From positions 1 to 21,087 of the IMG/VR virus record IMGVR_UViG_3300034093_002639: a stretch of 21,087 bases of DNA; one strand, 5' to 3'. The position numbers were made by a program, and so were the translations under genes. Origin of the DNA: a virus. The notes under the pieces were generated by a model that had not been told where the DNA came from, made no database searches, and worked only from the letters and a program-made list of their open reading frames with translations. Positions 3,659-20,952 of the stretch are shown here, piece after piece (the stretch's first letter is position 1; each line of letters starts with the position of its first letter).

Positions 3659-3666
3659 GGATAATA

Positions 3667-5825: not shown

Positions 5826-5832
5826 CTGCAAG

Positions 5833-5839
5833 TTCTCCT
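5833..5839 (-). promoter_or_regulatory. Strong ribosome binding site fixing the cytidylyltransferase start
   Basis: Read on the minus strand this is AGGAGAA, 7 bases from the ATG at 5825 and only 1 base from an in-frame TTG at 5831. It supports the ATG and is the strongest Shine-Dalgarno sequence I noticed in the leftward operon, where most genes rely on overlap. Confidence 0.7.
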
Positions 5840-5873
5840 AACTCTACACTTTGTAAGTAACACTCACTGGGCA

Positions 5874-6548
5874 TTATAATTTTCCTATAAACTTTTTATT
5901 ATTCGCCACCCACTGTTGAGCAGCTTCTGACTTATAATATTCACTGGTCCAGTCACTGTATATTTGCCAGTTGTTCGGAACATCATAGTCTTTTCTTATA
6001 AGATACATTTGACAACTAACGCTAACGGCTCTAGCATCTGGTGCTAGAATATATTTAAACATTACATTACCACTCTTATGTTTAGGACCATTCAGTCTAG
6101 TAACAATAGATTCTTCAGAGTCTAATCTAGATTTTTTTGCAATAACAACAAAGTCAGTTATTTTTTTCGTTGCACTAGCATCTAATCTTTCGTGTAGCTT
6201 ATCATAATGATTCTTAAAATCCACTCCCATGAATGCTACATCATTGTTGTCATTTACAATTTCGTCTAGTTCGCTTAGAATTACCGGCATTGAATTATTT
6301 GTAAACCAAGTGTCAGTTCTAAGTTTAATAATAATATCTTCATTGACTTGTTTTACTGCCTGTAAGAAATCCCATACTTGGACCCCACCACTGGATTGAA
6401 ATGGTCCTGTTGTGCTAGGGCCCGGTCTAGTAAAGTCGTAGACGTTCATTTCATATTTTGTTCTAAACAACTCAAATAATCTGTCATGATTAGTCCGAGA
6501 AGTTTTATCAAATTTTCGTTGACCGATGTATACTACGGCAATTGCCAT
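5874..6548 (-). CDS. Probable glycosyltransferase, duplicated pair member B
   Basis: This 224-residue protein is paralogous to the gene just upstream (6533-7390). Shared blocks are NHDRLF (20-25), GGVQVWDF (54-61), KLRTDTWFTNNS (75-86) and C-Q-x-x-LIRK-x-Y near the C-terminus. The order of a short Rossmann-like start, a helix, then a strand ending in R-T-D resembles WavE/GT-A type transferases in which the aspartate after Arg-Thr acts like a DxD motif, but I could not confirm that family. It starts inside the end of its paralogue (16-bp overlap) and is followed by a 48-bp gap. It is 61 residues shorter than the partner, mainly between residues 41 and 54 and at the C-terminus. A role in transferring a sugar in the island pathway is inference. 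Confidence 0.5.
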   Translation of the reverse strand: MAIAVVYIGQRKFDKTSRTNHDRLFELFRTKYEMNVYDFTRPGPSTTGPFQSSGGVQVWDFLQAVKQVNEDIIIKLRTDTWFTNNSMPVILSELDEIVNDNNDVAFMGVDFKNHYDKLHERLDASATKKITDFVVIAKKSRLDSEESIVTRLNGPKHKSGNVMFKYILAPDARAVSVSCQMYLIRKDYDVPNNWQIYSDWTSEYYKSEAAQQWVANNKKFIGKL

Positions 6549-7390
6549 CTTTTGAAATCCTCAATATTTAAATCCTGCGCTTCCCATCCTTGTTGACTTC
6601 TCCACCAATTAACTGCATCTTGCATAGGGTGAGGAATTATAAAAGTTTTCTTTCCTATTTCGGATTTATCATCTAAAATGTAACTTTGTATATAGTCCTT
6701 GCAAACTTCATTATCACCGGGATATGAAGTATATGTTTTTCTAATTAACCATGTTTGACATAATATTCTAAAGGCATTGACGTCTTGAAAATTAAAATGT
6801 TCAGTTTTTGTCATAGGAATCAACAGTTTAAAAAGATTGTTACCGCTGCGACGTTTTTTTGGTGAAAGTGAAATAATGTAGTCTATGACTTCATTACCAG
6901 GCTTTAGTTGAGATCTGTTTGCTACAATTGCAAAATCCTGCACACCGCCAGGAACTCCGTCTATGACAACCATTTTGTGATAGATCTTTCCAGCATTTTC
7001 ATGGATCCAATCACTACCAAAAAAAGCCATATCTGTTTTGCCTACAAGGATTTTTTTCATCTCTTCACATATGATAGAAATACTAGAGTCAGTGAACCAA
7101 ACGTCTGTGCGTAATCTCATCACATATGGTTCCGTGGTACGTTCACAACTTCTGTAAAAATCCCAGACCTGAATGCCGCCGCCTTGTCCTCGACGATATG
7201 CATTGTCAAGATTGGGGTCACCTTCTTCAAAAGGACAAACACCTCGATCAGGGTCGTCTTTGGTAAACCAATAGACGGTAATATCTATAATTTCTTTAAG
7301 ACGATCAAACAGTCGTTGATGATTTTGTTTGACAATTTCTAAGTTATGTCTTTTATCACCGGTATAAAATATTGCCAGTTTTTCTTTCAT
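6533..7390 (-). CDS. Probable glycosyltransferase, duplicated pair member A
   Basis: This 285-residue protein carries the same blocks as its downstream paralogue: NHQRLFDRL (23-31), GGGIQVWDF (70-78), RLRTDVWFTDSS (92-103), a conserved FAIVANRSQL segment and CQTWLIRKTY. The R-L-R-T-D strand and the following W-F-T could form the nucleotide-sugar site of a GT-A like transferase (WavE-like by pattern only). Extra sequence at 45-68 (Asp- and Gly-rich) and a longer Trp-rich tail distinguish it from the partner. Its ATG overlaps the stop of the nucleotidyltransferase-phosphatase gene by 4 bp. No signal peptide or membrane segment is visible, so it is probably cytoplasmic. Confidence 0.5.
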   Translation of the reverse strand: MKEKLAIFYTGDKRHNLEIVKQNHQRLFDRLKEIIDITVYWFTKDDPDRGVCPFEEGDPNLDNAYRRGQGGGIQVWDFYRSCERTTEPYVMRLRTDVWFTDSSISIICEEMKKILVGKTDMAFFGSDWIHENAGKIYHKMVVIDGVPGGVQDFAIVANRSQLKPGNEVIDYIISLSPKKRRSGNNLFKLLIPMTKTEHFNFQDVNAFRILCQTWLIRKTYTSYPGDNEVCKDYIQSYILDDKSEIGKKTFIIPHPMQDAVNWWRSQQGWEAQDLNIEDFKRWQLP

Positions 7391-8409
7391 ATAAAATCGC
7401 TTAAATTATCTTGATCTCTTTTTATATTTACAGCTACCGCACGTGGCCAGGGATTAGCATCGTTGTAATCGTTTATTAAAACACGTTTAGTGTTTGGCAA
7501 TCCGGAAATTAACTTGAAGTCAACAAATCCTAGATCTTTTAGCATTTGCTCTGTTATTGCGTGTGAGTTACTGCTTCGTGCGGTGGTAAAGATTACTTGA
7601 CTGCCATTGGCAATTAATTCTTTAACACATTTTATATTCTTTTCGAGTGGAATCGGCGTAGTTCCTACTTCTAGTCTCGACTGTGCTTTGATTATTGTAC
7701 CGTCAACGTCGCAGAACAGCACAGCCTTATCATTATACTCAAACCATTCTTCTGCGGTGCCTACATCTACATAATTTGTAACAGCACTTTCTTTGAATAT
7801 TGCATTATCATTTAGACATTCTTCAATAATATGACTAACAAAGATTTCTTTTACGTTTGCATCTTTTAATTTTTCAAAAGCCGACATAAACATATCTGCT
7901 GATTCAAATTTGTATCCGCCCACACAGAACTTGTCAGATACAACCTGCTTTTCAATAATACTGGTAATGATGCCTTGGTCGTTAGACACTATAAAACTCT
8001 TGCTAGCTAATCGTTTTAGGATTTCGTGATCTCTAATGTTTGAAACGCAGACGTAATTGCCTTCTTGATAATCGTGGTCAAAAAAACTATCGCAGTCTTT
8101 GATTAAAAATTCTTCTGTGGTTAATTCTGCTTGTTTTAGTATCTGATAAACGGTATCAGCAGGTCCTGTTGTTCTATTTTCTAAAATTATAACCTGTATA
8201 GCATCACCGTATTCATTCTTGATATATTCAGCAGTATTATATTGATCGTTGTGTTCTTTTAGAATACCGAGAGTGATATTGTGCTTGCCTATAAACGATT
8301 CAAGGGACCGTTCAAACATATATTTGCCTTGAAAGTCTGCAAGAATGTATTTTGGGCGCATATTAGGAAATCTTGTAGATAACCCAGCAGCTGGCATTAT
8401 TATTTCCAT
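7387..8409 (-). CDS. Bifunctional nucleotidyltransferase and HAD phosphatase
   Basis: Two enzymes are fused in 340 residues. Residues 1-226 are a sugar-1-phosphate or choline-phosphate nucleotidyltransferase: MPAAGLSTRF (5-14) is the GxGxR-like NTP-binding loop, K20 follows it, DCDSFF at 105-110 holds the metal aspartates, and VDVGTAEEW (215-223) closes the domain. Residues 229-340 are a small HAD-superfamily phosphatase: DVDGT (234-238) with nucleophile D234 and D236, TTAR (275-278) for motif II, and K308 followed by IND-Y-ND (312-317) for motifs III and IV. The pairing suggests one chain that both activates a phosphorylated intermediate and removes another phosphate. The downstream kinase-like gene completes a kinase-phosphatase-nucleotidyltransferase set. 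The exact substrate is unknown. Confidence 0.85.
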   Translation of the reverse strand: MEIIMPAAGLSTRFPNMRPKYILADFQGKYMFERSLESFIGKHNITLGILKEHNDQYNTAEYIKNEYGDAIQVIILENRTTGPADTVYQILKQAELTTEEFLIKDCDSFFDHDYQEGNYVCVSNIRDHEILKRLASKSFIVSNDQGIITSIIEKQVVSDKFCVGGYKFESADMFMSAFEKLKDANVKEIFVSHIIEECLNDNAIFKESAVTNYVDVGTAEEWFEYNDKAVLFCDVDGTIIKAQSRLEVGTTPIPLEKNIKCVKELIANGSQVIFTTARSSNSHAITEQMLKDLGFVDFKLISGLPNTKRVLINDYNDANPWPRAVAVNIKRDQDNLSDFI

Positions 8410-9143
8410 AACAAATTAATTCCTTTTAACAAAAAGTTTCTTTCAAGAGTATCCGGTTTACTATGCCTATACACTCTTAACAACATTAGAATTAACAGAT
8501 AGTCGTTGTTTGCTTCTGGATATCGTTCTAATATTCGTTGTTGTATGTGTTTGGTTTTTACATCTAACATCGCATTATCTTTTCTGGTAAACCAGCCTAA
8601 TTCTAAATCTTGTCTTAATTTTGCAATATCAAATACGTAGGAATCATATTCTATGGTTGCACAGTCGATAAGAAAAAATCCTCGATCAGTGGTAAAAATA
8701 ATATTTTCTAGTGTTAAATCACCGTGATAATTTGAACTCGGTAATATTTTAGGAAGACGCTCTAGTAGTTGTTCACGAGTAAATGGCATCTCATCAAAAC
8801 TAACTTCTTGTAATTTTTTAATATATGTTTCTGTATAATCTTTGTCTACAGCATTATTAGAAAGTTTATCTAAGATAGATAATATAAAATCTAATAATTT
8901 TTCGTAGTTGCTAGTTTTAAGATATGATTTGATATCTAGTCCGTGTAGATATTCCATATCGATCATTTTATTTGATATTGTGTATAGTTGTGGAAGTGGA
9001 TAATCTACTGACAGTACCTGCATACGTTCGATGTTTCTGGATATGTTACCAATCTTTCGTACAAAGAGTTTGTTGTGTTTCTGCATCAATAATATTTGAT
9101 TTCCAGAAAACCCATGAAGCTCTTTAACTACCTTGGCGGCCAT
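8400..9143 (-). CDS. APH/choline-kinase-like phosphotransferase
   Basis: This 247-residue small-molecule kinase belongs to the aminoglycoside phosphotransferase/choline kinase superfamily. Motifs are in the expected order: VRK with K30 as the likely ATP lysine, the hinge-region MEYLHG, NYHGDLTLENI (HGD at 140-142 and N147) as the catalytic loop, and LIDC with D160 as the metal aspartate. Next to the nucleotidyltransferase-HAD gene it resembles LicA-LicC type choline-phosphate activation, but a sugar is equally possible. I prefer the ATG at 9143, one base after the upstream stop; an upstream TTG at 9158 would add five residues and overlap the methyltransferase gene by 14 bp. The 3' end overlaps the next gene by 10 bp. 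Confidence 0.8.
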   Translation of the reverse strand: MAAKVVKELHGFSGNQILLMQKHNKLFVRKIGNISRNIERMQVLSVDYPLPQLYTISNKMIDMEYLHGLDIKSYLKTSNYEKLLDFILSILDKLSNNAVDKDYTETYIKKLQEVSFDEMPFTREQLLERLPKILPSSNYHGDLTLENIIFTTDRGFFLIDCATIEYDSYVFDIAKLRQDLELGWFTRKDNAMLDVKTKHIQQRILERYPEANNDYLLILMLLRVYRHSKPDTLERNFLLKGINLLWK

Positions 9144-9144
9144 A

Positions 9145-9702
9145 TCACTTGTATGCAACTACTCTGCTGTCAATACTGGATTTAGCATGAAGGTTGTTTT
9201 CGATCTGCACTCTTGTGAATCCAACATCGCGAAATAGTCTCGACATGCTTTCTGCGCTATATCCCCACTTGTGTAACATAGTCGGATCTGGATATCTAAC
9301 ACTATCTCCATATATGCCTGCTACAGTTCTTTTATGTAGACGCTTGTCATGCGACCAAAAACAGTCTGGATTATTAACAACTTCTTGACACATTTTTAAT
9401 AAGTCGGGCCATTCGGTAGCTGCTGCACCACCCGGTCTAAGAATTCTATAAAACTCTTTATACATAACAGGAATGTGTTGACGACTAATATGCTCTACTA
9501 CGTGAACACTTAATATTTCATCTACACAGTTGTCCGGTAAGGGAAAAGGTTTAGTAATATCGTGGATCATTACATTCGGATCGTGTGACATGTACTCGCC
9601 GTCAATGTTTAGATAGCCATCAAACAATCGGCTACCGCAACCAAGATGTAACCGTACTTTTTGTCCGCTGTTTGTTAATTCATTTACTTTTTCATTAAGC
9701 AT
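9145..9702 (-). CDS. SAM-dependent methyltransferase (Methyltransf_11 type)
   Basis: This 185-residue class I methyltransferase has LHLGCGSR (18-25) as the SAM-binding motif I, a following LNIDGEY with the acidic residue that holds the ribose, then ILSVHVVEHI (motif IV region) and FYRILRPGG, which is typical of the family. The length is normal for a stand-alone enzyme. The ATG at 9702 is chosen over a TTG at 9714 because a GGAA lies about 7 bases before the ATG. It starts inside the end of another methyltransferase gene (8-bp overlap), so the two are translated together. In this setting O-methylation of a sugar or glycan end is likely, by inference. Confidence 0.85.
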   Translation of the reverse strand: MLNEKVNELTNSGQKVRLHLGCGSRLFDGYLNIDGEYMSHDPNVMIHDITKPFPLPDNCVDEILSVHVVEHISRQHIPVMYKEFYRILRPGGAAATEWPDLLKMCQEVVNNPDCFWSHDKRLHKRTVAGIYGDSVRYPDPTMLHKWGYSAESMSRLFRDVGFTRVQIENNLHAKSSIDSRVVAYK

Positions 9703-10273
9703 TTTTAGTTCCAAACATATTAATCATCGAATAAGGAAGATATTTTTTCATAGAGCCATCTTCACGGGTTTCAATAAAAGCTCTTCTGCGATCAAAGTCG
9801 CTGTCTTTCTCTACAAACTCTACACTATCAGACAGTTCAGTTGAATACGCAAAGTTGTCCCATTGAAATTCTGGAAATAGGAATTCAATGGCCTTAAAAC
9901 TGTACCTGTAGTAATCATCTGGGTATTTATGGTATTTCCAAACCCAGGGACTGTTGATGTACAACTTTCCACCGGGTTTAACTAAATCAGATAATACTTT
10001 GGCCATTAGCCAGGGCGTCGGGGTATGTTCAAGTACACTACAACAAATAATCAAATCAAAATAATTTTTAGGTAACGGGTTATCTTCCTTGGTTAAATCG
10101 CAGACAACATCTACACCGGCACCTTCTTCGAGATCGACACCGACATATTCTACATCTGTGTAATTTTCTCTAAATTCAGATACACTAACAATTTTACTGC
10201 CTATTTCAAGAACAGGGCCTTTGGCTTTAGGATATACTGTTTTTAAATAAACTATATCGTTGGGGCTACCCAT
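9695..10273 (-). CDS. SAM-dependent methyltransferase (second Methyltransf_11 type)
   Basis: This 192-residue class I methyltransferase has VLEIGSKI as motif I, YVGVDLEEG with the ribose-binding aspartate, DVVCDLT, FDLIICCSVLEHT for motif IV and KPGGKLYINSP after it. In place of the usual glycine triad, motif I reads E-I-G-S-K, a common variant. A YYRYSF stretch near residue 140 is frequent in phage and LPS methyltransferases. It begins one base after the GT-B gene ends and overlaps the next methyltransferase by 8 bp. It shares no close identity with that neighbour, so the two probably modify different positions. The substrate is unknown. Confidence 0.85.
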   Translation of the reverse strand: MGSPNDIVYLKTVYPKAKGPVLEIGSKIVSVSEFRENYTDVEYVGVDLEEGAGVDVVCDLTKEDNPLPKNYFDLIICCSVLEHTPTPWLMAKVLSDLVKPGGKLYINSPWVWKYHKYPDDYYRYSFKAIEFLFPEFQWDNFAYSTELSDSVEFVEKDSDFDRRRAFIETREDGSMKKYLPYSMINMFGTKNA

Positions 10274-10274
10274 A

Positions 10275-11237
10275 TTACATACCTAATTGACGTCTAACTT
10301 CTTCTATAAATCGGTTAGATAACACTCGTGCTGAATAGTTTTCTTCTGTGTATTTTTGACCAGCACGGATTCTTTCTAACGTCTTACCGTGATGTGCTAG
10401 AGCCCACTTAATACCAGCAATGTAATCATCCTGCCAAGTGTATGGTGCAAATTCTTCATAGCTGGCTAATGCTGTTGTAATAACAAATTTACCAGACATT
10501 AAACTATCGATTAATCTATTTGCGCTTTTAGTATCTGTTCTTGGATTATCTGTTTGCACAGGCATTAATACGATATCACACTCGGATAACAATTGACCTT
10601 GTCGTTCCCAGGTCCATTCTTGCATGTCGAGTTTGTCAAAATTAATTCCGCTGATTTGACCTTTAGATTGTCTAAGACTCATTTTGCTGAGTAGTCTATC
10701 TGTTTTAGCACTGATCATGGTGTATTTGTAATTGCCAATTTCTTTTTCTAAACGCTGCCAAATTTCTACAACAGGCAAAAATTTAAAACTTGATTGACTG
10801 CCAAACCATAGCAATTTAATTTCCTTGCCAGGAGAAAATGTTGGCTCAAGTTTAGGACGTTCAAATGGATCTGGCATAACAATACTGTCTCGACCAGTAT
10901 GATGCTTGGTACTTACACCCATTTGCACACTGTTAACCGACACAAGGTCTGCTAATCGACAGCAAGGTTCGTATTCTTCTTTTTCTTCAAATTTATTATC
11001 ACACAGGTCGTAAATTGTTTTTGCACCTAGATCTTTAGCCCGTTGAATGCTGGCAGGCTGACTGCGTTTTAAAAATATCACGATGGTAGTGTTGTCCACT
11101 TCTGACCAGTCAGTTAGAATTTTAGCATCGTAGCCTTGATCAGCCAACGCCTGACAGGTAACTTCTCCACGTAATCTATGACTGGCTCGTTTTGGTTTGT
11201 ATGCGTCACTAAAGAATCTAATTTTTACGTTGTGCAT
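10275..11237 (-). CDS. GT-B glycosyltransferase (group 1/GT4-like)
   Basis: This 320-residue protein has two Rossmann-like halves. The N-terminal half begins with IRFFSDAYKPKRASHRLRGE, the acceptor-side pattern of Kxx-R-x-R-G. The C-terminal half has IKLLWFGS (140-147) at its first strand, DIVLMP (221-226), and KSANRLIDSLMSGKFVIT (237-254), which is the donor-binding helix of GT4 enzymes, with K and N where many have E-x7-E. It would transfer a sugar from a nucleotide donor to a growing glycan. The ATG at 11237 is preferred over TTG at 11249 because a GGA lies 7 bases before it. It overlaps the FkbM gene by 13 bp. Confidence 0.8.
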   Translation of the reverse strand: MHNVKIRFFSDAYKPKRASHRLRGEVTCQALADQGYDAKILTDWSEVDNTTIVIFLKRSQPASIQRAKDLGAKTIYDLCDNKFEEKEEYEPCCRLADLVSVNSVQMGVSTKHHTGRDSIVMPDPFERPKLEPTFSPGKEIKLLWFGSQSSFKFLPVVEIWQRLEKEIGNYKYTMISAKTDRLLSKMSLRQSKGQISGINFDKLDMQEWTWERQGQLLSECDIVLMPVQTDNPRTDTKSANRLIDSLMSGKFVITTALASYEEFAPYTWQDDYIAGIKWALAHHGKTLERIRAGQKYTEENYSARVLSNRFIEEVRRQLGM

Positions 11238-11875
11238 TTTAAAATCCAATCTTTTTTATGTTGATCTACTACTCGAAAACCCCAAGACTCTAATATTTTG
11301 ATAGATGGTTTATCGGTCATTGCGTCTTTGTATTCGTGCTTTTGTTGTTCAACAACAATTACTGGTTTATTTCTAAGAATAGTCTGCATTGCACCAGCAA
11401 GGATTTCTTCTTCAAATCCCTCTACGTCAATTTTTATTAAATCAATATTTTCATAGTTGTAACTATCCAGTGTCCTTAACGGAATAGAACCCTTGCCTAC
11501 CGATGTGGGATCGATATGACTATGCCCGGTATTCCCCTGAACGATATTCATTTCTATCAGTGATTCAGTGCGCCCAAGTGCTACTGGTTCAATTATATAA
11601 TTACTGCCTAGCACGTTTTTCTTAAAACATTCTCTAAATTCAGGAACTGGTTCGAAAGCAATAACTTTTTCAAATTGTTTTACAAGATCGCAAGCCCATA
11701 GACCTACGTTTGCACCGATATCAATACAGATTCTTTTGTTATCACAAAATGCAATTGCAGAATCTCTAGCCCTCCATTGATATCGAACTACTCCGTCATT
11801 CTTGAGACTTTTTGCAAGCATCCTAGGAAAATGATCATCATAATCCGGAAACCAAAATCCATGACTTTCTATCAT
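11225..11875 (-). CDS. FkbM-family methyltransferase
   Basis: This 216-residue protein has the full FkbM signature: IDIGANVGLWA at 51-61 as SAM motif I, AFEPVPE at 73-79 with E75-P76, the middle segment LGRTES, and IKIDVEGFEEEIL at 147-159, whose D150, E152 and G153 are hallmark residues. FkbM enzymes O-methylate polyketides, sugars and nodulation factors. It is the third methyltransferase of the operon, which argues for a heavily capped glycan. The start overlaps the upstream stop as ATGA. There is no transmembrane segment, so it is probably a cytoplasmic enzyme. The family assignment is among the firmest in the window. Confidence 0.92.
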   Translation of the reverse strand: MIESHGFWFPDYDDHFPRMLAKSLKNDGVVRYQWRARDSAIAFCDNKRICIDIGANVGLWACDLVKQFEKVIAFEPVPEFRECFKKNVLGSNYIIEPVALGRTESLIEMNIVQGNTGHSHIDPTSVGKGSIPLRTLDSYNYENIDLIKIDVEGFEEEILAGAMQTILRNKPVIVVEQQKHEYKDAMTDKPSIKILESWGFRVVDQHKKDWILKCTT

Positions 11876-12714
11876 TTAAATGTACTCCAATATTTTTCTA
11901 ATCTGTTGACTTTGAGATCTGTTTGTAAACTATGACCGTGATCCTTGCGATCGCCTTTGAGATGATCAAGATATCCGCCCCATTCGCAATTAATCAAAGG
12001 ATGGCCCTCACCTACTGAATTTGTTTTCGATGGTCTTAGGTCGCCAAGCTGTTGACTCCAATTTAATTGTTTTAGTTCTGGTACTGTTTTTCTTACAGCA
12101 TCAAACACAAAACTGTCATGCCACTCACCTAAGGTGAAGATACCATTTTCTGCGTCATCGTAATATCTTTGAAAAGTTTCTAGGAATTTTTTTGTTGCAG
12201 GACTTCTAAGATTCATAGCGTACAGGCCGCATTCACTGTATTTTCCTTCTCTGCCAAGGTAACATAAATCAAAAGACGGTGAACATAGTGCTAAAACTTT
12301 TTCACGGGTAATTGCACTGTGACAAACCATATCAGCATCCATCCATAACAGGATATCAGCATCAGTTGTTCTAGCACAGTGAAAAATTGCATAAACTTTA
12401 TGAGCGAATCTCACAGCATGCCACTTGAACGCTTTCTTTGAATCCTTTCGACCGCCTCTAACAGGATCACCGCTGACATCACCGTTGGCCTTGGGCACAT
12501 CCTTCCAACGGTTTTTAAATTCTGTTAATTCTTGAACATCGTCGAGGCTGAATAGGGTCACATGATTATGATTTCTAACAATGGGATTACATTTTTCTGG
12601 GTATATGTGCAGAGTAATTTCCTCTGGCCAGTTTTCACAGAATCCGTCGATCATCCTCTGTGCATATTTTTTTAAACCTTGTTCATGAAAGGTTGTTACC
12701 ACTGCTATCTTCAT
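11872..12714 (-). CDS. GT-A glycosyltransferase-like protein
   Basis: This 280-residue protein starts with a typical GT-A strand (MKIAVVTTFHEQG) and has TTDADILLWMDADMVCH at 117-132, where DAD (126-128) is the expected metal-binding DxD motif at the end of a hydrophobic strand. ECGLYAMNLRSPATKKFL later fits the acceptor-loop region. Similar proteins are common in marine T4-like phages by my recollection. It overlaps the gene upstream by 4 bp and the FkbM gene downstream by 4 bp. It probably transfers a hexose-type residue; neither donor nor acceptor is evident. Confidence 0.7.
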   Translation of the reverse strand: MKIAVVTTFHEQGLKKYAQRMIDGFCENWPEEITLHIYPEKCNPIVRNHNHVTLFSLDDVQELTEFKNRWKDVPKANGDVSGDPVRGGRKDSKKAFKWHAVRFAHKVYAIFHCARTTDADILLWMDADMVCHSAITREKVLALCSPSFDLCYLGREGKYSECGLYAMNLRSPATKKFLETFQRYYDDAENGIFTLGEWHDSFVFDAVRKTVPELKQLNWSQQLGDLRPSKTNSVGEGHPLINCEWGGYLDHLKGDRKDHGHSLQTDLKVNRLEKYWSTFK

Positions 12715-13109
12715 CTATAATGCTCCCATACGTGAAAAATGCCTTGCAGGCTGGTGCAGGCCCAACCGGAATCGTACAAAGGTTTGGCTATAGCGTTATC
12801 TATACGAACGCCGCCCTCGACGAAAATTTTTGAATTGTGTTTTTTCCATAATGCTTCTACTTTATCAAGATTACACAACTCATTGTGATCGATAAAAATT
12901 GATGCAATATTTTGTATATGATCTAATTTAACAAAAGTTTCTTTATAAACAAGATTTTTAGCCTTAAACGCCGGCTGTGCTGTGCTGACCACAAATACTG
13001 TGTCATATATTTCTACAACTTGCTCTAAAATTCCAAAAGCCGATCCTAGCACCAGGGCATGATCGCGGTCTCTTGAAAGTTTATGCAGTCTTTTTTTGAA
13101 TTTGTTCAT
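12711..13109 (-). CDS. Unknown protein, first gene of the leftward island operon
   Basis: I do not recognise this 132-residue protein. It begins with a basic helix (MNKFKKRLHKLSRDRD), then alternates hydrophobic strands and helices: ALVLGSAFGIL (18-28), DTVFVVST, KNLVYKET, ASIFIDHNEL and SKIFVEGG. That layout resembles a trimmed class I methyltransferase or other Rossmann-like fold, but the glycine-rich SAM loop is weak (GSAFG) and no family motif is complete. It is the promoter-proximal gene, with a late-promoter octamer 36 bp before it on the minus strand, and overlaps the GT-A gene by 4 bp. No Shine-Dalgarno sequence is visible. Confidence 0.6.
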   Translation of the reverse strand: MNKFKKRLHKLSRDRDHALVLGSAFGILEQVVEIYDTVFVVSTAQPAFKAKNLVYKETFVKLDHIQNIASIFIDHNELCNLDKVEALWKKHNSKIFVEGGVRIDNAIAKPLYDSGWACTSLQGIFHVWEHYR

Positions 13110-13113
13110 AATC

Positions 13114-13121
13114 TATAAATA
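13114..13121 (+). promoter_or_regulatory. T4-type late promoter (exact TATAAATA)
   Basis: This is a perfect match to the T4 late promoter octamer on the plus strand, 38 bp before the ATG at 13160. By T4 geometry transcription would start near 13127. It faces right, toward the Kdo-transferase-like gene, and lies in the 50-bp gap between divergent genes. Confidence 0.75.
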
Positions 13122-13135
13122 TACAGCAGTATTAA

Positions 13136-13143
13136 CTACGTAG
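13136..13143. repeat. 8-bp palindrome between divergent promoters
   Basis: CTACGTAG is a perfect palindrome lying between the two oppositely directed late-promoter octamers (13114-13121 and 13146-13153). It could be a protein-binding site serving both directions. It is short enough to occur by chance. Confidence 0.3.
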
Positions 13144-13145
13144 AT

Positions 13146-13153
13146 TATTTATC
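13146..13153 (-). promoter_or_regulatory. T4-type late promoter (GATAAATA) for the leftward operon
   Basis: On the minus strand this reads GATAAATA, one base from the T4 consensus, 36 bp before the start of the leftward operon at 13109. By T4 geometry transcription would start near 13140. Its distance to its gene is almost the same as that of the rightward octamer to its own gene. Confidence 0.65.
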
Positions 13154-13159
13154 AACATT

Positions 13160-13984
13160 ATGCGCTTCAGATTATATCGAGAATACGGTGCTTTGAACAG
13201 TCCCCCAGTGTTTGATGCCATAGAACAGGGGCTAAGACAACAAGGACACGTCATTGTCACCGACAACGAAGATGTTGCAGTGATATGGTCGGTATTATGG
13301 TCTGGCAGAATGCGGCAAAATAAACTGATTTATGATAAATGCCAGCAGCAAGGCACACCCATTCTGATAATAGAAGTGGGTAATCTAAAAAGAGGCGAAA
13401 CTTGGCGGATCAGTCTCGACCATATTAACAATCTTGGTAAATTTGCTAACGAAAGTAATTTAGATATGACCAGACCTGAAAAATTAGGTGTTAAATTACA
13501 GCCGATTGCTACAACCCGGCGCGGTGAAATACTTATTGCCTGCCAACATCAAGAAAGTCTTCAATGGCAAGGCATGCCTGCTATGAAAGATTGGGTAGGA
13601 ACCACTATTGAAAAAATAAAACAGCATACTCATAGAAGAATCCGTGTAAGGTATCACCCTCGATCAGCATTTCCGTTCAAGCAGTCTGGAGTAGAGGTAG
13701 AACGACCTATGCTTGTACCCAATACCTATGACAGTTTTGATATTTTTTACAATTATCACTGCGTGATTAACCACAACAGCGGTCCAGCTGTTCAAGCAGC
13801 CATAAATGGGGTTCCTATATTATGTGATTCATCCAGTCTAGCTGCGGATCTCAGCATCAAGTGGTCAGAACTAGATAATCCCTATGTACCAGACAGGTCT
13901 GAATGGTTTATAAAACTTTGTCACACCGAGTGGACCGTTGACGAAATACGCCAAGGCACCCCAATTTCTAGATTATTCGGTTGA
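13160..13984 (+). CDS. Capsule-synthesis/Kdo-transferase-like protein, copy 4
   Basis: This 274-residue protein is the fourth member of the family also found at 1203-4566. IRVRYHPRS (161-169) is the R-x-HP strand, NHNSGPAVQAAINGVPI (204-220) the x-N-S, helix, G-x-P signature, followed by LCDSSS, which is close to the WVDDSSS of copy 3. The tail PDRSEW...TEWT-x-DEIRQGT matches that of copy 3 (PDRSQW...CHWT...SRQG). It is the only one of the four outside the left arm, across the leftward operon. There is no Shine-Dalgarno sequence. Its TGA stop lies inside the -35 box of the next operon's promoter. Confidence 0.6.
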   Translation: MRFRLYREYGALNSPPVFDAIEQGLRQQGHVIVTDNEDVAVIWSVLWSGRMRQNKLIYDKCQQQGTPILIIEVGNLKRGETWRISLDHINNLGKFANESNLDMTRPEKLGVKLQPIATTRRGEILIACQHQESLQWQGMPAMKDWVGTTIEKIKQHTHRRIRVRYHPRSAFPFKQSGVEVERPMLVPNTYDSFDIFYNYHCVINHNSGPAVQAAINGVPILCDSSSLAADLSIKWSELDNPYVPDRSEWFIKLCHTEWTVDEIRQGTPISRLFG

Positions 13985-14015: not shown

Positions 14016-15200
14016 ATGCTATCATCAGAATTTGCCGAAGACATATTTGTTGAATTTTATAATCTTGTTTCCCAACAAAAAATATCCATACAAGGTCAAG
14101 ATTTTTCACCTATCTCAAGTTTCCATGAAAAAATCATCAACAGCGGAGAGCTGACCAAAAATCAGGCAAATTTCCTCATAAAATTATTAGAAAAATACAA
14201 GACTATGTCAGCCATGGCTGGTCTTGACTATGGATCTAAACTTGCTGACCTCAAATGGCAAAGACCGTTTAGAGTATTAGATCTCAGCAAAACAATATAT
14301 GTAGAGCTACGTGAAAACAAACTGGAAATTTGTCTAAAATTTCCTTATCAGTTGAAAAAAGAGTTCGAAGATGAAATCGCAAGTCGAGAGGCATTGCATA
14401 CTCATGGTTTTTGGGATTCAGAAGACAAAGTAAGACGCTTGGATTTTTATCATTATAATTTAATTGCGCTCTACGAATTTGCCTGCAAACATAATTTTGA
14501 AATTGATGACTCGTTTATGATTGCGTTGGGTGATGTTGAAGAAATTTGGCAAAATTCTGAATGCGTATCACCACACAGCACAATAGGCATTTATGGAGTT
14601 GAACTAAAAAATTCCAGTCAAGAAACAAAACAATGGTGGGATGAACATCGACGCAGTTCTCCTGTTAGTGATTTGTTATTAGCCAAAAGCATGGGGTTTG
14701 TATACCAAGAAAAACCTCAAAATTTAGTGGAAAAAATCGCAGCTAGCCAAGAAAACAGTTTCTGGATTAAATCCAATCAAGAGTTTTTTGAATTAGTTAA
14801 ATCTTTTTCTGGAAAAATATGTGTGTTACTAGATCGAAGCAGCGCCACGCTACCTTGGCTGCAGAATTTTGTAGCCGCTGCCGAGAAAAGTGGTGTTAGC
14901 CGTGAAGAAATCAAGGTGTGTTTTAGAGAAAACAAAGAATCTACAACTGGCCTGAATGATTGGATCAAGATCGCAGGAGTTGGCGGCAAAGTCGAAACCG
15001 GCAGGATATTAATTTTTGAATCAAAGCCAGCCAAGTGGTTGTTTAAGTCAGACAATGATGTTACAATGTTAGTAACAAATAACATTTTTCCACCAACAAA
15101 TACCATGGCACGAGATTGGTTTGCGTGTCATCCTTGTGTGATATATCTTGGTGACACTAGACCAACAGAAACTAAAGGACAAAAAATTGTTGAACTGTAA
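14016..15200 (+). CDS. UvsW-linked protein with possible HARP-like domain
   Basis: This 394-residue protein is not a family I can name. Residues 46-62 (LTKNQANFLIKLLEKYK) form an amphipathic helix often seen in phage replication proteins. Residues about 81-165 run W-x-R-P-F-R-V...ICLKFPY...FWDSEDKVRRLDFYHYNLIAL...FEID, which follows the pattern of the HARP domain of SMARCAL1 annealing helicases: a K-F-P-Y strand, W-D-x-x-x-K, an aromatic pair, then a helix. The C-terminal half alternates strands and helices (ICVLLDRS at about 272) but has no Walker A or B motif, so it is not an active helicase. It starts right after a sigma70-like promoter and overlaps uvsW by 14 bp. A DNA-binding partner of UvsW is inference. 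Confidence 0.6.
   Translation: MLSSEFAEDIFVEFYNLVSQQKISIQGQDFSPISSFHEKIINSGELTKNQANFLIKLLEKYKTMSAMAGLDYGSKLADLKWQRPFRVLDLSKTIYVELRENKLEICLKFPYQLKKEFEDEIASREALHTHGFWDSEDKVRRLDFYHYNLIALYEFACKHNFEIDDSFMIALGDVEEIWQNSECVSPHSTIGIYGVELKNSSQETKQWWDEHRRSSPVSDLLLAKSMGFVYQEKPQNLVEKIAASQENSFWIKSNQEFFELVKSFSGKICVLLDRSSATLPWLQNFVAAAEKSGVSREEIKVCFRENKESTTGLNDWIKIAGVGGKVETGRILIFESKPAKWLFKSDNDVTMLVTNNIFPPTNTMARDWFACHPCVIYLGDTRPTETKGQKIVEL
15174..15179 (+). promoter_or_regulatory. Ribosome binding site fixing the uvsW start
   Basis: AAAGGA lies 7 bases before the TTG at 15187, inside the 3' end of the preceding gene. It argues for a TTG start there and against the in-frame GTG at 15148, which has no comparable site. 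Confidence 0.6.
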
Positions 15201-16641
15201 ATTGACAATCAAAGACGAAGTAAACATCAAGGTGGAAGGACTGCGGGTTGAAACACGACGGAAAATTGTCAATAAATTAAAATTCGATTTGCCCTATGCT
15301 CGACATATGCCTGCATATAAACTGGGTCGTTGGGATGGAACTAAAACCTATTTTAACATAGGCGGCAGTGGATATCTTGCACACCTTGATGTGATTCTAG
15401 CAGTGATCGAGGATGAGGGATATGACATCGAAGTCGAAGATCTTAGACCGCATCAGGAATTGAAATTTGCCGCCATCGATGAAAATTATTGGGCTGACCT
15501 TGGCAAGACTTGGCCCAAAGGACATCAGCAGGCAGGAGAACCTATTGTACTGAGAGACTATCAGTATGAAGTGATCAACAAGTTTTTAGAGAATCCCCAG
15601 GCCTTACAAGAAGTTGCCACAGGTGCCGGTAAGACTATCACTACTGCTACGTTAAGTCATCTATGTGAACCATATGGTAGAACAATGGTGGTTGTACCTA
15701 ACAAGTCATTGGTTGTTCAGACTGAAGAAGACTATCGCAATCTAGGACTAGATGTTGGTGTATATTTTGGAGATAGAAAAGAATTAGGCAAGACGCATAC
15801 CATATGTACTTGGCAAAGTTTGAATGTGTTAGACAAGAAAAGCTATGACAATGATACCATGACTTTAGCAGAATTCTGCGAAGGAGTCTGTGCAATTATC
15901 GTCGACGAAGTCCACCAAGCCAAGGCCGAAGTGTTGACCAAACTACTAACACAGAACTTTCGCAACTGTGCCATACGTTGGGGACTCACAGGAACTGTGC
16001 CTAAAGAACAGTGGGAATTCCAAGGCATATTGGCCAGTATAGGACCTGTGATAAATCAGGTGAGTGCTCATGATCTACAGGAAAAAGGAGTGTTGGCGCA
16101 GTTGAACATCAATGTGTTGCAGACTAATGATGTGCAGGTGTTTACATCATTCCAAGACGAATACTCATTTCTTGTCACAGACGACAAGCGATTACAATGG
16201 ATTGCTAACAAGATCACTGCGTTATCCGCCACTGGCAACACCCTGGTATTGATCAATAGGATCGATACTGGTAATAAATTAATCGCACTAATTCCTCAAG
16301 CGGTATTTGTTAGTGGCGGTATGAAATTAGATGACCGCAAGGAAGAATACGATGAAATTAAAACAAGTGATGACAAGATTATTTTGGCGACTTATGGTGT
16401 GGCCGCTGTGGGTATTAATATTCCACGCATTTTTAATCTGGTTCTTCTTGAACCCGGAAAGAGCTTTGTCCGCGTTATACAAAGCATTGGGCGAGGCATT
16501 AGAAAAGCAGAAGACAAAGATCACGTAGAAATTTGGGATATTACCTCTGCTTGCAAATACAGCAAGAGACATCTTACAGAAAGAAAAAAGTTTTATAAAG
16601 AGGCCAAGTACCCCTTTACCATTACCAAGGTTAATATATGA
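15187..16641 (+). CDS. uvsW: UvsW-type superfamily 2 DNA helicase
   Basis: This 484-residue protein is the phage ATPase that regresses stalled forks, unwinds R-loops and controls origin use late in infection. An N-terminal substrate domain (1-120; R-x-x-K-x-x-x-W-DG-x-x-x-Y as in T4 UvsW) is followed by R-x-YQ (Q motif), ATGAGKT (144-150, Walker A), DEVH (240-243, motif II), LTGT (267-270, motif III), ATYGVAAVGIN (motif V region) and QSIGRGIRK (432-440, motif VI). Length is close to the 503 residues of T4 UvsW. The start is TTG at 15187 with AAAGGA 7 bases before it; a GTG at 15148 would add 13 residues within the upstream gene. It overlaps the upstream gene by 14 bp and the next by 4 bp. Confidence 0.95.
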   Translation: MLNCKLTIKDEVNIKVEGLRVETRRKIVNKLKFDLPYARHMPAYKLGRWDGTKTYFNIGGSGYLAHLDVILAVIEDEGYDIEVEDLRPHQELKFAAIDENYWADLGKTWPKGHQQAGEPIVLRDYQYEVINKFLENPQALQEVATGAGKTITTATLSHLCEPYGRTMVVVPNKSLVVQTEEDYRNLGLDVGVYFGDRKELGKTHTICTWQSLNVLDKKSYDNDTMTLAEFCEGVCAIIVDEVHQAKAEVLTKLLTQNFRNCAIRWGLTGTVPKEQWEFQGILASIGPVINQVSAHDLQEKGVLAQLNINVLQTNDVQVFTSFQDEYSFLVTDDKRLQWIANKITALSATGNTLVLINRIDTGNKLIALIPQAVFVSGGMKLDDRKEEYDEIKTSDDKIILATYGVAAVGINIPRIFNLVLLEPGKSFVRVIQSIGRGIRKAEDKDHVEIWDITSACKYSKRHLTERKKFYKEAKYPFTITKVNI

Positions 16642-17543: not shown

Positions 17544-17786
17544 ATGGGATCTCTTAAACCAGGTACAACTTACATTTATGAAAAGGCCGACGGCATAACC
17601 TATGCTAGAGAATTTCATGCACCTCACAGTGAGCGATTCGAAATTGGCAGAGACTTCGAAATGATTTTAAAAGAAGAGCAGAGTCTTTGGCAAGAAATAG
17701 TTCGAGCAGGTCGAACCAATCAGGCCTTGCAAGAAGCTCTCGATCGTGTTAAAATACTATATCACTTGAGCAAAGACAATGGCTAA
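17544..17786 (+). CDS. Small conserved marine-phage protein (80 residues)
   Basis: The protein is MGSLKPGTTYIYE... with EFHAPHSERFEIG in the middle and a C-terminal helical half (LWQEIVRAGRTNQALQEALD). The ATG at 17544 is supported by AAAGG at 17534-17538 with a spacing of about 6; upstream in-frame ATGs lie inside the cupin gene. By recollection, similar 70-90-residue proteins are widespread in cyanophages, with no known function. The Tyr-Ile-Tyr-Glu start and basic middle are conserved in that memory. It overlaps the gp62-like gene by 8 bp. Confidence 0.7.
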   Translation: MGSLKPGTTYIYEKADGITYAREFHAPHSERFEIGRDFEMILKEEQSLWQEIVRAGRTNQALQEALDRVKILYHLSKDNG

Positions 17787-18258
17787 AAACAAACACGTAG
17801 ACCTATTCAAAGATATCATACCCTGTGTCGATCAGGGTATCAAAGAACTTTGGGATGCTGCCACAGAAGAAGGTCGTAAAGAAATCAAAGGAGATCTTTG
17901 GAATCTCAACAGATATATCAGTAGTGTTGCTACCTCTGACAGAGAAATACAAGAACACTATCTACTCACAGTCAATCAATACTACAATAGAAATTGGGCC
18001 AATGTTAGTCAGCATCCCAAACTGCAATGGCTGACTCTGGCTTCTTGCAGTCATGAAAGCAAGGCCAAACAGTTCCACGAGTGGATTGCATTAAAGAAAG
18101 AAAAGAACAAAAAAGAAGAATTCCTTGCAGACTTATTTCCAACTATGAAGAGAGCGGACCTTGCTACACTTGCAATCATTACCACAGACAGAGAAATCAA
18201 AGACTATTGTCAAAACCTTGGGTGGGACAAAAAAGAAGTCAATGCAATTAAATTTTAA
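17779..18258 (+). CDS. 62: Clamp-loader small subunit, gp62-like
   Basis: This 159-residue protein has a pattern I associate with gp62 of marine T4-like phages: LFKDIIPC near the start, LWNLNRYISSV, VNQYYNRNW, HPKLQWLTLASCS, FHEWIALKKEKNKKEEFL, LFPTMKRADLATLAIITTDREIKDY and the closing LGWDKKEV. In T4, gp62 is the fifth subunit of the gp44/62 ATPase that loads the gp45 sliding clamp; it is itself not an ATPase, and no Walker motifs are seen here. No gp44 or gp45 gene is in the window, so the partner must be elsewhere. The ATG overlaps the upstream stop by 8 bp, and the end overlaps the zinc-finger gene by 17 bp. Confidence 0.65.
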   Translation: MAKNKHVDLFKDIIPCVDQGIKELWDAATEEGRKEIKGDLWNLNRYISSVATSDREIQEHYLLTVNQYYNRNWANVSQHPKLQWLTLASCSHESKAKQFHEWIALKKEKNKKEEFLADLFPTMKRADLATLAIITTDREIKDYCQNLGWDKKEVNAIKF

Positions 18259-18925
18259 ATGCGAACACTGCGAGAAGTTATTTGCCAAAGAAAAGACTTT
18301 GGTGGTGCATGTCTGTGAACAAAAACGCAGACACCTTAGTCGCAATGAAAAACATGTGTTAATGGGATTATTGACCTTTCAGAGATTTTATCAGCTCACG
18401 CAAAAAGCACAACAGCCAAAGACCTTTGAAGAATTTGCTTCATCTAGTTTCTATACAGCCTTTGTGAAGTTTGGTAGTTTCTTGGTTAATACAGCGCCTA
18501 TATATCCTGAACGATTTGTGGATTATGTGGTCAAGAGTGGAGTTAAACTAGATCATTGGTGTAGAGATGAATTGTATCAGAGCTATATTGCAGAATTAAT
18601 CAAAGTCGAACCTGCTGATGGAGCCATACAACGAAGTATCATGACCATGATGAGCTGGGCGGAATCGAATTCGGCAGCGTGGGAACACTATTTTGCCTAT
18701 GTAAATCTAAACAGAGCCACGCATGATATCAAAGAAGGATTAGTAAGTCCTTGGATGATATTGAATGCTCGCTCTGGCAAAGAAATGTTGACTCGCATGA
18801 ATGACGAACAATTAGAAATTATTGGACCTGTGATAGATCCACAGTTTTGGCTGCGTAGATTTAAAACATTACCAGCAGATGTGGAATTAGTCAAGGATGT
18901 TATCAAAGAGGCAAAAATACAGTGA
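18242..18925 (+). CDS. Zinc-finger protein of unknown function, phage-conserved
   Basis: The 227-residue protein starts MQLNFKCEHC. C7 and C10, then H23 and C25 (H-V-C) could hold one zinc ion in a C2HC arrangement. After it comes a basic KRR, then a helical protein with LTFQRFYQL, FVKFGSFLVNT, PERFVDYVVKSGVKLDHWCRD, VEPADGAIQRSIMTMMSWAES and a final FWLRRFKTLPADVELVKD. I recall it as a frequent neighbour of gp62 in cyanophages but know no function. It may bind nucleic acid through the finger. The ATG at 18242 is chosen because the finger begins directly after it; the in-frame sequence upstream is within gp62. It starts 17 bp before the gp62 stop. Confidence 0.7.
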   Translation: MQLNFKCEHCEKLFAKEKTLVVHVCEQKRRHLSRNEKHVLMGLLTFQRFYQLTQKAQQPKTFEEFASSSFYTAFVKFGSFLVNTAPIYPERFVDYVVKSGVKLDHWCRDELYQSYIAELIKVEPADGAIQRSIMTMMSWAESNSAAWEHYFAYVNLNRATHDIKEGLVSPWMILNARSGKEMLTRMNDEQLEIIGPVIDPQFWLRRFKTLPADVELVKDVIKEAKIQ

Positions 18926-19125: not shown

Positions 19126-19337
19126 TGTTAAGAAAACTCATAGACGGAACCACAGTTCAAGAATTTAGCACAGCAGTGGAATTAACTATCACAACCAAGT
19201 GTCCGGATAAGTGGATGTTGGTTGATAGAGAAACTGGGGAGATATACACTCCTTATACCACACCAGGACCTAGACAGTGGAAGAAAATAGACTATGCCAC
19301 ATGGGCACCACCTGAAGAGATCAAAGACAATGGCTAA
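19122..19337 (+). CDS. Small conserved protein (71 residues), unknown
   Basis: It begins MMLRKLIDGTTVQEF and has a central TTKCPDKWMLVDRETGEIYTP that looks like a short beta-hairpin unit. I recall close small proteins in marine T4-like phages. Two ATG codons lie in a row; the second, at 19125, is 7 bases from an AAGGA (19113-19117) and may be the real start. The first ATG overlaps the upstream stop. The 3' end overlaps the oxygenase-like gene by 8 bp. Confidence 0.6.
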   Translation: MMLRKLIDGTTVQEFSTAVELTITTKCPDKWMLVDRETGEIYTPYTTPGPRQWKKIDYATWAPPEEIKDNG

Positions 19338-20007
19338 ACACGATACAGCAAAACTGCTGCCTTTTACAAATATAGGAGTTCTAGAATCAACTCTTCCGGA
19401 AGATATATTTCAACTTCTAAAAACTTCTATAGATAACTTAACTGAAGATGCTGAAACTTACAATACTAGACTAGTAGGACACATACGAGAAGAATATTCG
19501 TTGGATCATATTAATAATGCAATGTCCGGATATATTATTGGAGTAGCCAATGCGTGGTCAGATGCACATCCCGGGTATATTGCTGGATTTGAAGAAGCAC
19601 ATAAAAATAAGAATTACAAACTAGAACTCACTAGCTTATGGGTCAATAAACAGAAAAAACATGAATTTAATCCGTTGCATACGCATCCATCGGTATTGAG
19701 TTTTGTTATCTGGATTAAGATTCCTTATAGTTTAGAAGATGAAATAAATTATTTTCCTCGGCTATCGGGTAAGGATAGTGATAGGGGAAATGTACATACT
19801 TCAAAGTTTTGTTTTGTTTATGTAGATACACTAGGCAGTATTAAACAAGTACCAATTCCAGTTGATAGCAGTTATGAAGGAACTATTATGATGTTCCCGT
19901 CGGTCTTGAATCATATTGTTTACCCGTTTTATACTTCAGACGAGTATAGAATAAGTGTTTCTGGGAATATTAGAATAAATGTGTTGGACCAGTGTAAAGA
20001 GAATTAG
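19330..20007 (+). CDS. 2OG-Fe(II) oxygenase-like protein
   Basis: This 225-residue protein has a double-stranded beta-helix pattern of the phage putative 2OG-Fe(II) oxygenase family. PLHTHPSVLSFVIWIKIP holds H117 and H119 (the first is the likely iron ligand), and GTIMMFPSVLNHIVYPF supplies H195, followed 12 residues later by YRISVSGNIRIN with R207 as the 2-oxoglutarate anchor. The usual HxD aspartate is replaced by His or absent, so the metal site may differ. Such proteins hydroxylate proteins, nucleotides or sugars. The ATG at 19330 starts MAKHDTAK and avoids reading deep into the preceding gene. An in-frame ATG at 19294 has no supporting site. Confidence 0.65.
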   Translation: MAKHDTAKLLPFTNIGVLESTLPEDIFQLLKTSIDNLTEDAETYNTRLVGHIREEYSLDHINNAMSGYIIGVANAWSDAHPGYIAGFEEAHKNKNYKLELTSLWVNKQKKHEFNPLHTHPSVLSFVIWIKIPYSLEDEINYFPRLSGKDSDRGNVHTSKFCFVYVDTLGSIKQVPIPVDSSYEGTIMMFPSVLNHIVYPFYTSDEYRISVSGNIRINVLDQCKEN

Positions 20008-20008
20008 C

Positions 20009-20584
20009 ATGGATATTGATATAGATTTTTTCGATCGTGAGCAAGCATTGGCCTTGTTCAAACATGTACGAGCTAGTCGTATTGATGATAATAAATTAGT
20101 TAAACATAACACAGGCGTATATCTGCATGAGGTGCCTGTAAATGCTGTGGAAAATCTTTGTGCGGTGCCTTACGAAGAAGCAGAAGAAAAAAACTATTTT
20201 AAGATTGATTTTTTAAATGTTGGCATCTATAAAGGTGTCAGAGACGAAGCACATCTCGTTCAACTCATGGAGACTGAACCGTTATGGGATCTACTACAAG
20301 ACGAAGAATTTATCCAGAACCTATTCCATGTGAATGGGCATGGGTCTACTCTGAGACAGAGCAAACCAGAATCTATCGAGCAATTGGCAGCAGTGTTAGC
20401 GATGATTCGACCCGCGAAACGTTATCTGATTGGGAAAGATTGGACTACGGTGATGACGGAAGTTTGGACCAAGCCCGAGAATGACGAATACTTCTTTAAG
20501 AAATCTCATGCCACTGCCTATGCTGTGGCAGTTGTGGTTCAGATGAATTTAATCTGCGAACAGATTAGCATAGAGTATAGTTAG
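20009..20584 (+). CDS. Stand-alone DNA polymerase III alpha finger-like protein
   Basis: This 191-residue protein shows, in order, four blocks of the finger region of bacterial DnaE/PolC: HNTGVY (33-38, compare hPaGvv), YFKIDFLNVGIYKGV (63-77, compare vKFDFLGLrtLt), KPESIEQLAAVLAMIRPAK (109-127, compare LQPDcFeDmiALvALfRPGP) and YFFKKSHATAYAVAVVV (151-167, compare FnKSHsaaYAlvsy). The palm with its catalytic aspartates, the PHP domain and the clamp-binding tail are all absent. T4-like phages use the unrelated family B polymerase gp43, so this is an orphan fragment. Its open frame and position in the operon argue against a decaying pseudogene. The ATG is one base after the previous stop. The function is unknown. 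Confidence 0.65.
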   Translation: MDIDIDFFDREQALALFKHVRASRIDDNKLVKHNTGVYLHEVPVNAVENLCAVPYEEAEEKNYFKIDFLNVGIYKGVRDEAHLVQLMETEPLWDLLQDEEFIQNLFHVNGHGSTLRQSKPESIEQLAAVLAMIRPAKRYLIGKDWTTVMTEVWTKPENDEYFFKKSHATAYAVAVVVQMNLICEQISIEYS

Positions 20585-20952
20585 ACTATCTTTCTAACCA
20601 AAGTAATCGACTTACGTTTGATTCTCTTTACGATTATGTCGTTTAGACTGGTACAAGGACCGTGCATGAGTTTAACATCTTTGGTCGAAAAGTTTCTAAT
20701 CACGTATCGGAATTCAATGATTTCTCTGGCCAAGAAAATGTTAATAGGAATTTGCCTGTTTGATTCCCACCACCAGACTTCGCCTAGTTCTAGGAATCGC
20801 TGTTTTTCCTCGTCTGTTTTTATCATAGAGTAGTCATACATACTAGTGACTTGAGCATCTTGGTTGATAATGATGCCCACATATTCGTGGCTAACATGCA
20901 CTATAACGCTGATAAAAGGGAAATTTTCTTGTAGGTTAGTTGTTATTCTCAT
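20581..20952 (-). CDS. Conserved marine-phage protein of unknown function
   Basis: This 123-residue leftward gene has a strong pattern: MRITTNLQENFPFISVIV, EYVGIIINQD, FLELGEVWWWESNRQIPINIF, FRYVIRNFSTKDVKLMHGP and a basic end KRIKRKSITLVRKIV. I recall near-identical patterns in many cyanophages and other T4-like marine phages, always without a function. The WWWESNR block is distinctive. Its stop overlaps the stop of the DnaE-like gene, and its start is 31 bp from the rightward gene at the edge, so it sits alone on this strand at a boundary between two modules. Confidence 0.75.
   Translation of the reverse strand: MRITTNLQENFPFISVIVHVSHEYVGIIINQDAQVTSMYDYSMIKTDEEKQRFLELGEVWWWESNRQIPINIFLAREIIEFRYVIRNFSTKDVKLMHGPCTSLNDIIVKRIKRKSITLVRKIV

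Follow-up and report, generated by a model that had tools for sequence, protein, structure and literature searches.

A gene of an environmental virus contig as the probable C-terminal half of a two-protein minimal DNA polymerase III alpha

The closest described relatives of the gene studied here come from a comparison of jumbo phage genomes, presumably that of Iyer et al. In its accessible part, this comparison (Viruses 2021, 13:63; PMC7824862) describes a split minimal DNA polymerase III (Pol III) alpha in the group 2.2 jumbo phages, which is made as two standalone proteins from distant genes, occurs beside a family B polymerase and lacks other Pol III domains. The same part of PMC7824862 assigns nucleotide binding to the N-terminal protein and metal and template binding to the C-terminal protein, and suggests an ancient minimal polymerase as the origin of the system, the alternative being a broken-down DnaE. 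A 172-aa protein of phage CBB, CBB_328, was noted in 2017 as a truncated Pol III alpha (PMC5259590); by its size and its match in our searches it corresponds to the N-terminal half (hereafter A), and the C-terminal half (hereafter B) is not recognised in the accessible part of that source, which also describes phage CBB, a related phage, as lacking gp62 and gp45. Some copies are already named as Pol III alpha in GenBank records, and the PHROG families of both halves (PHROG 11778 for B, PHROG 11127 for A) are labelled 'DNA polymerase', labels that are silent on their being halves of one enzyme. A literature search exclusive of subscription-only papers and bioRxiv preprints found no laboratory study of a split phage Pol III alpha.

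The gene analysed here lies near the end of a 21,087-nucleotide stretch of IMG/VR record IMGVR_UViG_3300034093_002639 (the window, meaning the whole stretch of DNA that was analysed) and is an environmental member of the split minimal Pol III alpha of the group 2.2 jumbo phages.

The window gene and its relationship to Pol III alpha

The gene and the sequence blocks discussed below are located in the window as follows.

20009–20584, plus strand: B-half gene, an intact open reading frame from ATG 20009 to TAG 20584 (191 aa, PHROG 11778)
20012–20026, plus strand: DIDID, the first palm aspartates, matching D401–D405 of E. coli alpha
20201–20209, plus strand: K-I-D (K65–D67) with the third palm aspartate, equivalent of E. 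coli alpha K553, F554, D555
20408–20419, plus strand: RPAK in the fingers, counterpart of E. coli RPGP (FRPGP at 638)
20498–20521, plus strand: KKSHATAY in the fingers, counterpart of E. coli KSHSAAY (at 758)

The open reading frame is real and related to the alpha subunit of Pol III, and the gene is complete, as had been supposed in the original prediction made from the sequence. An earlier in-frame ATG lies upstream at 19979, but since 72 of the 80 IMG/VR relatives, whose starts were picked by a script, have MPDIDIDF as their N-terminus, position 20009 is the likely start. The window protein matched PHROG 11778 with E=1.1e-68 and phrog_405, a DNA polymerase family of 1190 positions, with E=1.3e-6, and a match to phrog_12219 covered its residues 158–182. 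TIGR00594, a model of Pol III alpha, was matched at E≤1 by all 33 members of the alignment of the window protein, with a best value of 3.1e-6, and by the window protein itself with E=0.0039. The matched NCBIfam models of Pol III carry Pol III alpha, DnaE or error-prone polymerase as names, and these names decide nothing on origin. Pfam returned a sole, weak similarity for the window protein alone, to DNA_pol3_finger (E=0.14), and a match to PF17657, as this family is numbered, passed the E limit in just one of six annotated genomes. A phmmer search of the window protein against the PDB gave no match up to E=10.

When aligned with E. coli DnaE, the N-terminal MDIDIDF corresponds to PDFDVDF (residues 400–406 of E. 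coli alpha) and YFKIDFLNV to LVKFDFLGL (residues 551–559). D401, D403 and D555 of Pol III alpha are taken here to be the catalytic palm aspartates. The DnaE-like blocks that had been named for this protein (IDFLNVG and KSHATAYA) are present, in order and beyond what chance would give, but the accompanying view that the catalytic palm is missing is contradicted by the alignment, in which MDIDIDF is the palm DxD strand and KIDFL carries the third palm aspartate, just the first part of the palm being absent. Nor is the protein a finger-only domain free of palm residues, as D2, D4, D6, K65 and D67 are invariant in all 87 B proteins compared (the window protein, those of 80 IMG/VR contigs, including one identical copy, and those of six named phages with 37–52% identity to the window protein). 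The fingers residues R134, P135, K137, H167, A168 and Y171 are likewise invariant (87/87). Outside this set, the DxDID and KxDIL strands also occur in the distant B copies of Salicola phage SCTP-2 and Alishewanella phage Slicko01. An hhalign comparison of a 10-row B profile with the single E. coli sequence reached a probability of 6% (E=0.0059); in this low-probability alignment the phage KxDxL lies on E. coli KFDFL and the aligned stretch ends at E. coli residue 642. The DxD strand and the H-x-x-G-V block are separated by 25–26 residues in the window protein and by 104 in E. coli (from 406 to HAGGVV at 511, the blocks being paired by eye), which indicates that the thumb is gone from the phage protein. 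The PHP, thumb, clamp-binding and OB domains of full-length DnaE are all absent from the 191-aa chain.

An AlphaFold model of the window protein, calculated with 33 sequences, had a mean pLDDT of 88.4 and a pTM of 0.70. Comparison with PDB structures by VIA-align, which covers only chains ranked high by Foldseek, placed bacterial replicative polymerases in the 14 best entries (Z 9.1 to 5.6), followed by an unrelated entry with Z 3.5; together with the TIGR00594 matches, this fold bears out the DnaE homology originally proposed. The best Foldseek E-value was modest (1.8e-3). The highest score was obtained with 5lew, presumably M. tuberculosis DnaE1 (Z 9.1, 187 residues, rmsd 4.4), and E. coli alpha (2hnh) followed with Z 8.9 over 182 aligned residues (rmsd 4.4), covering E. 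coli residues 402–781. VIA-align pairs residue 1 of the model with E. coli 400–401 and residue 3 with 402. Three 9q.. entries titled just 'DNA polymerase' are read as PolC from their numbering, among them 9qrn (Z 6.8).

A separately encoded partner half in related phages

Six annotated jumbo phage genomes (Phosso, PA5oct, RaK2, Vibrio 2.275.O, XacN1 and PBECO4) were searched with the Pfam family DNA_pol3_alpha (PF07733), and each of the six contained one short, separate A gene over the family cut-off; a profile search added a seventh annotated phage genome (7/7 in total). The A gene comprises approximately 170–180 codons and carries the GRGSS loop and the first part of the palm, and its protein ends near E-F-(L/F)-(N/K/R), at the place of E. 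coli FERFLN (residues 388–393). A six-sequence A profile showed that at least 582 IMG/VR stretches encode a relative, and in the best 80 of these matches, which constitute the IMG/VR A set, G.GRGSS is invariant (80/80). Of 95 A frames, among which some loci are counted twice, 84 stop exactly at the model end, ten continue for 1–6 residues and one for 767 more; this last frame, 1166 residues in total, is read as E. coli DnaE by its length. Three A copies matched PHROG 11127 with E=3.1e-85 to 7.8e-46, and hhalign of A against the E. coli sequence gave a probability of 90% (E=1.5e-6). The AlphaFold model of an A protein (locus L104; pLDDT 92.6) aligned through its residues 78–178 with E. coli alpha 279–393 (2hnh, Z 9.4) and with 5lew (Z 11.8). 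In its PDB comparison, where Pol III alpha or PolC of bacteria made up all 15 rows listed, no counterpart was obtained for residues 1–77, and the best Foldseek E-value of the A model was again modest (5.3e-3).

The split point is thereby defined on the E. coli sequence, A ending at the equivalent of residue 393 and B beginning at 400/401, and the family C palm set of GS loop, DxD and third aspartate is complete only as the sum of both. Among 199 loci none contained both halves (E≤1e-5) in one locus or in one frame, and in the seven annotated genomes the halves lie 11–224 kb apart. These unfused halves and their distances rule out a sequencing break within one gene. Neither half contains intein-sized extra sequence at the A/B junction.

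The two halves largely travel together. Each matched 63 of the 50,697 records of a phage collection, and 59 records were common to the 60 listed for each half. OR228459, among the matches listed for A only, does carry B; PP728206, which is among those listed for B but not A, has a length of 109 kb. Of 16 IMG/VR records, seven picked for B and nine picked for A, 11 contained A, 14 contained B and nine contained both; by pick, A was present in two of the seven large B-picked records and B in seven of the nine A-picked records, B not being found in the remaining two (191 and 156 kb). A is also present in the two IMG/VR records with a 68% identical B (L047 and L069). A search for A in the five A-less B-picked records and three further B-bearing records found none (0/8), even with a 38-row profile. 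As a marker of the clamp loader gene, the Pfam family Gp44_lid matched in two of eight records and missed one with gp44, and a gp44 protein query was used instead; the gp44 queries, from three phages, contain an AAA domain and a Gp44_lid domain that scores below its cut-off. This protein query had no match in the eight A-less records and matched in three of three A-bearing records. As gp44 adjoins A and both are absent, missing sequence rather than a missing gene is suggested, and the eight B-bearing records appear to be fragments without that part of the genome. An A half was found neither on the 21-kb window nor on a 42-kb contig with an identical B protein. In Alishewanella phage Slicko01 (141 kb), A, an RFC/gp44 gene and B all lie within approximately 12 kb.

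Gene neighbourhoods and the family B polymerase

Besides the B-half gene, the following features of the window were compared with the surroundings of 80 related B loci, and the surroundings of A were surveyed in 80 A loci.

15148–16641, plus strand: UvsW-like DNA helicase (ResIII/Helicase_C, PHROG 16), upstream end of the replication/recombination block
17779–18258, plus strand: conserved neighbour, PHROG 11758 (E=1.9e-9), match in 78/80 related loci
18161–18925, plus strand: conserved neighbour, PHROG 11058 (E=4.7e-59), match in 80/80 related loci
20581–20952, minus strand: small convergent gene, PHROG 11637 (E=6e-32)

The suggested position of the gene among replication genes was confirmed in the related loci, where uvsW lies upstream of B in 50 of the 68 loci with at least 4.5 kb upstream, and every one of the 54 loci that extend 4.5 kb or more downstream has a gp61 primase gene after B; a different gene order around B was seen in XacN1. 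The A gene is followed within 5 kb by gp44 in 52 of the 55 loci with 5 kb downstream. A gp62-like neighbour, which had been proposed for the operon with the gene left unspecified, could not be confirmed: the family profile of the protein encoded at 17779–18258 gave a probability of 0.3% against T4 gp62 and 0.1% against three control T4 proteins, a comparison that is weak because a single T4 sequence was used.

Several further genes were observed in these neighbourhoods. The convergent PHROG 11637 gene abuts the end of the B gene in 69 of the 70 loci with at least 600 bp downstream and is thus a strict partner of B in place, possibly also in function. In 77 of the 80 A loci, a GroES/gp31-like co-chaperonin gene with the same orientation as A lies a short distance downstream of it (e.g., L210, 7584–9560). 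Directly upstream of the window B gene lies a 2OG-Fe(II) oxygenase-like gene (19294–20007; PF13759, E=8.6e-11), which had a match in just seven of the 80 related B loci and was upstream in two. An RNase_T protein is encoded 3–5 kb from B in RaK2, PBECO4, Vibrio 2.275.O and XacN1, but as this family was present in only seven of 17 records (six over the cut-off), an obligatory epsilon-like exonuclease subunit is ruled out as constant partner. The window region 439–13984 holds a block of genes of the sugar/surface-glycan type, including a cytidylyltransferase fused to a mannose-6-phosphate isomerase domain, an FkbM methyltransferase and likely glycosyltransferases. An FNS..A..A...G.P-like motif is common to the proteins encoded at 1203–2009, at the end of 2006–3658, at 3667–4566 and at 13160–13984, which by eye look like paralogues; Pfam gave no match for these four proteins at E≤0.01.

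That a family B polymerase coexists with B, as would be expected for a T4-like phage, holds in the relatives, where it is encoded in all 17 records searched (6/6 and 11/11); the family B motifs SLYP[ST] and Y[AG]DTDS were both seen in 11 of 12 loci inspected. In the family B polymerase frame of PA5oct (L099), YGDTDS runs into an intein-like sequence, with a further polymerase match approximately 2.5 kb on. The accessible part of a report on MIJ3, a close relative of PA5oct, describes a split intein in its family B polymerase (PMC6892783); the 'split DNA polymerase' of MIJ3 is this intein-containing family B enzyme and not an instance of the split Pol III alpha. In Slicko01 (L200, OQ508956.1, 3529–5033), the family B polymerase match falls in two separate frames of 578 and 322 aa, so that here the family B polymerase may be split as well as the Pol III alpha.

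A two-chain polymerase, its rivals and known systems

We consider it likely that the window protein forms the C-terminal half of a minimal DNA polymerase of family C whose two parts are encoded as separate proteins; the homology, the fold, the catalytic residues, the partner gene in relatives and the gene neighbourhoods were all established by computation. The A protein would contribute the GRGSS loop together with the initial part of the nucleotidyltransferase palm and hold the nucleotide, and the B protein would supply the metal-binding aspartates and the template-side fingers. Since A stops where B starts on the E. coli sequence, A and B are expected to associate and to restore a single active site between them, and the resulting complex would polymerise DNA. 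This split enzyme would act beside the family B replicase of the phage, most likely as an additional polymerase that synthesises short stretches, with the extension of gp61 primers, gap filling and repair as candidate tasks. Short stretches are expected because the thumb and clamp-binding parts are absent, and low processivity is probable, since neither A nor B is large enough to include PHP, thumb or the C-terminal parts that bind the clamp, tau and DNA. Work in the replisome is favoured by the location of A next to the clamp loader and of B next to the primase-helicase genes. A more far-reaching version, which we regard as possible but doubtful, is that the thumb-less pair is an active, standing second polymerase of the T4-like replisome that takes over gp61 primers and hands them to the family B replicase, each half being encoded next to the machinery to which it contributes, the gp44 clamp loader for A and gp61/gp41 for B. 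If true, the pair would constitute a very small polymerase of family C whose palm is naturally formed by two chains, and a model for how Pol III began.

The original prediction saw in the gene a fragment of no enzymatic use that might act as a decoy for host Pol III. Such a free-standing, non-catalytic Pol III piece, competing with or capturing the host enzyme or its partners, would fit the exclusive Pfam similarity to the finger family, and a fingers piece could still bind template DNA, but the palm metal-binding strands are present, their aspartates are kept in all 87 proteins, including the six phages at 37–52% identity, and a partner gene for the remaining palm co-occurs. On these grounds the finger-only decoy is rejected as highly improbable, and one half of a two-chain catalytic domain, rather than a stray binding domain, is the most likely identity of the protein. 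Less easily dismissed, though still improbable, is an assembly of A and B into a structural part of the replisome whose active site is kept for nucleotide or metal binding only. The loss of the thumb and of the processivity parts speaks for it, as does the family B polymerase found in every one of the 17 records, beside which a second polymerase is not obviously needed; a thumb-less polymerase may also bind primer-template poorly, which counts against an active split enzyme. Yet the three palm aspartates and the KxD strand of B show strict conservation, as does the GS loop of A, and a scaffold would need none of these.

The nucleotidyltransferase core fold is also found in enzymes other than polymerases, and little besides this core and part of the fingers is left in A and B, so that an active nucleotidyltransferase that does not copy a template, such as an end-adding enzyme or one producing a nucleotide-transfer signal, could be envisaged. 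This seems very unlikely to us: the fingers, which in Pol III contact the template and the incoming nucleotide, are kept with their RPAK and KSHxxxY blocks, and both genes are located among replication genes. With the two-chain polymerase as the preferred reading, an active site is divided between two unlinked genes in phages that possess a full replicase, which raises the question of why a stripped-down second polymerase of the replicative type is retained. As the split point and the partner family can be named exactly, this question is directly testable with two small proteins. A seemingly useless fragment gene can thus be half of an enzyme, and for short phage genes annotated as 'DNA polymerase' the other half should be sought.

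In bacteria, the E. coli DnaE chain comprises PHP, thumb, and clamp-, tau- and DNA-binding parts. Its palm catalytic residues, GS loop and fingers blocks occur in the same order as in the phage halves, but it is one chain of 1160 aa, whereas the phage halves are two chains totalling approximately 365 aa. A DnaE in two pieces is also known from cyanobacteria, where dnaE-n and dnaE-c products are joined by a split intein and the break lies far downstream; unlike these, the phage protein is broken inside the palm and lacks intein-sized extra sequence. From the split Pol III alpha of the jumbo phages, as far as the accessible description goes, the window gene does not differ in kind: with its 191 aa, its correspondence to E. 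coli residues 402–781, its invariant aspartates and the lack of a PHP domain, the encoded protein has the features of the C-terminal protein of that system, here from an environmental contig. To that description, the present analysis adds where exactly the enzyme is divided, the loss of the thumb, the residues that are invariant across both sets, the surroundings of each of the two genes, the use of gp44 as a control for records without an A gene and, with Alishewanella phage Slicko01 (141 kb), a member whose genome is smaller than 200 kb.
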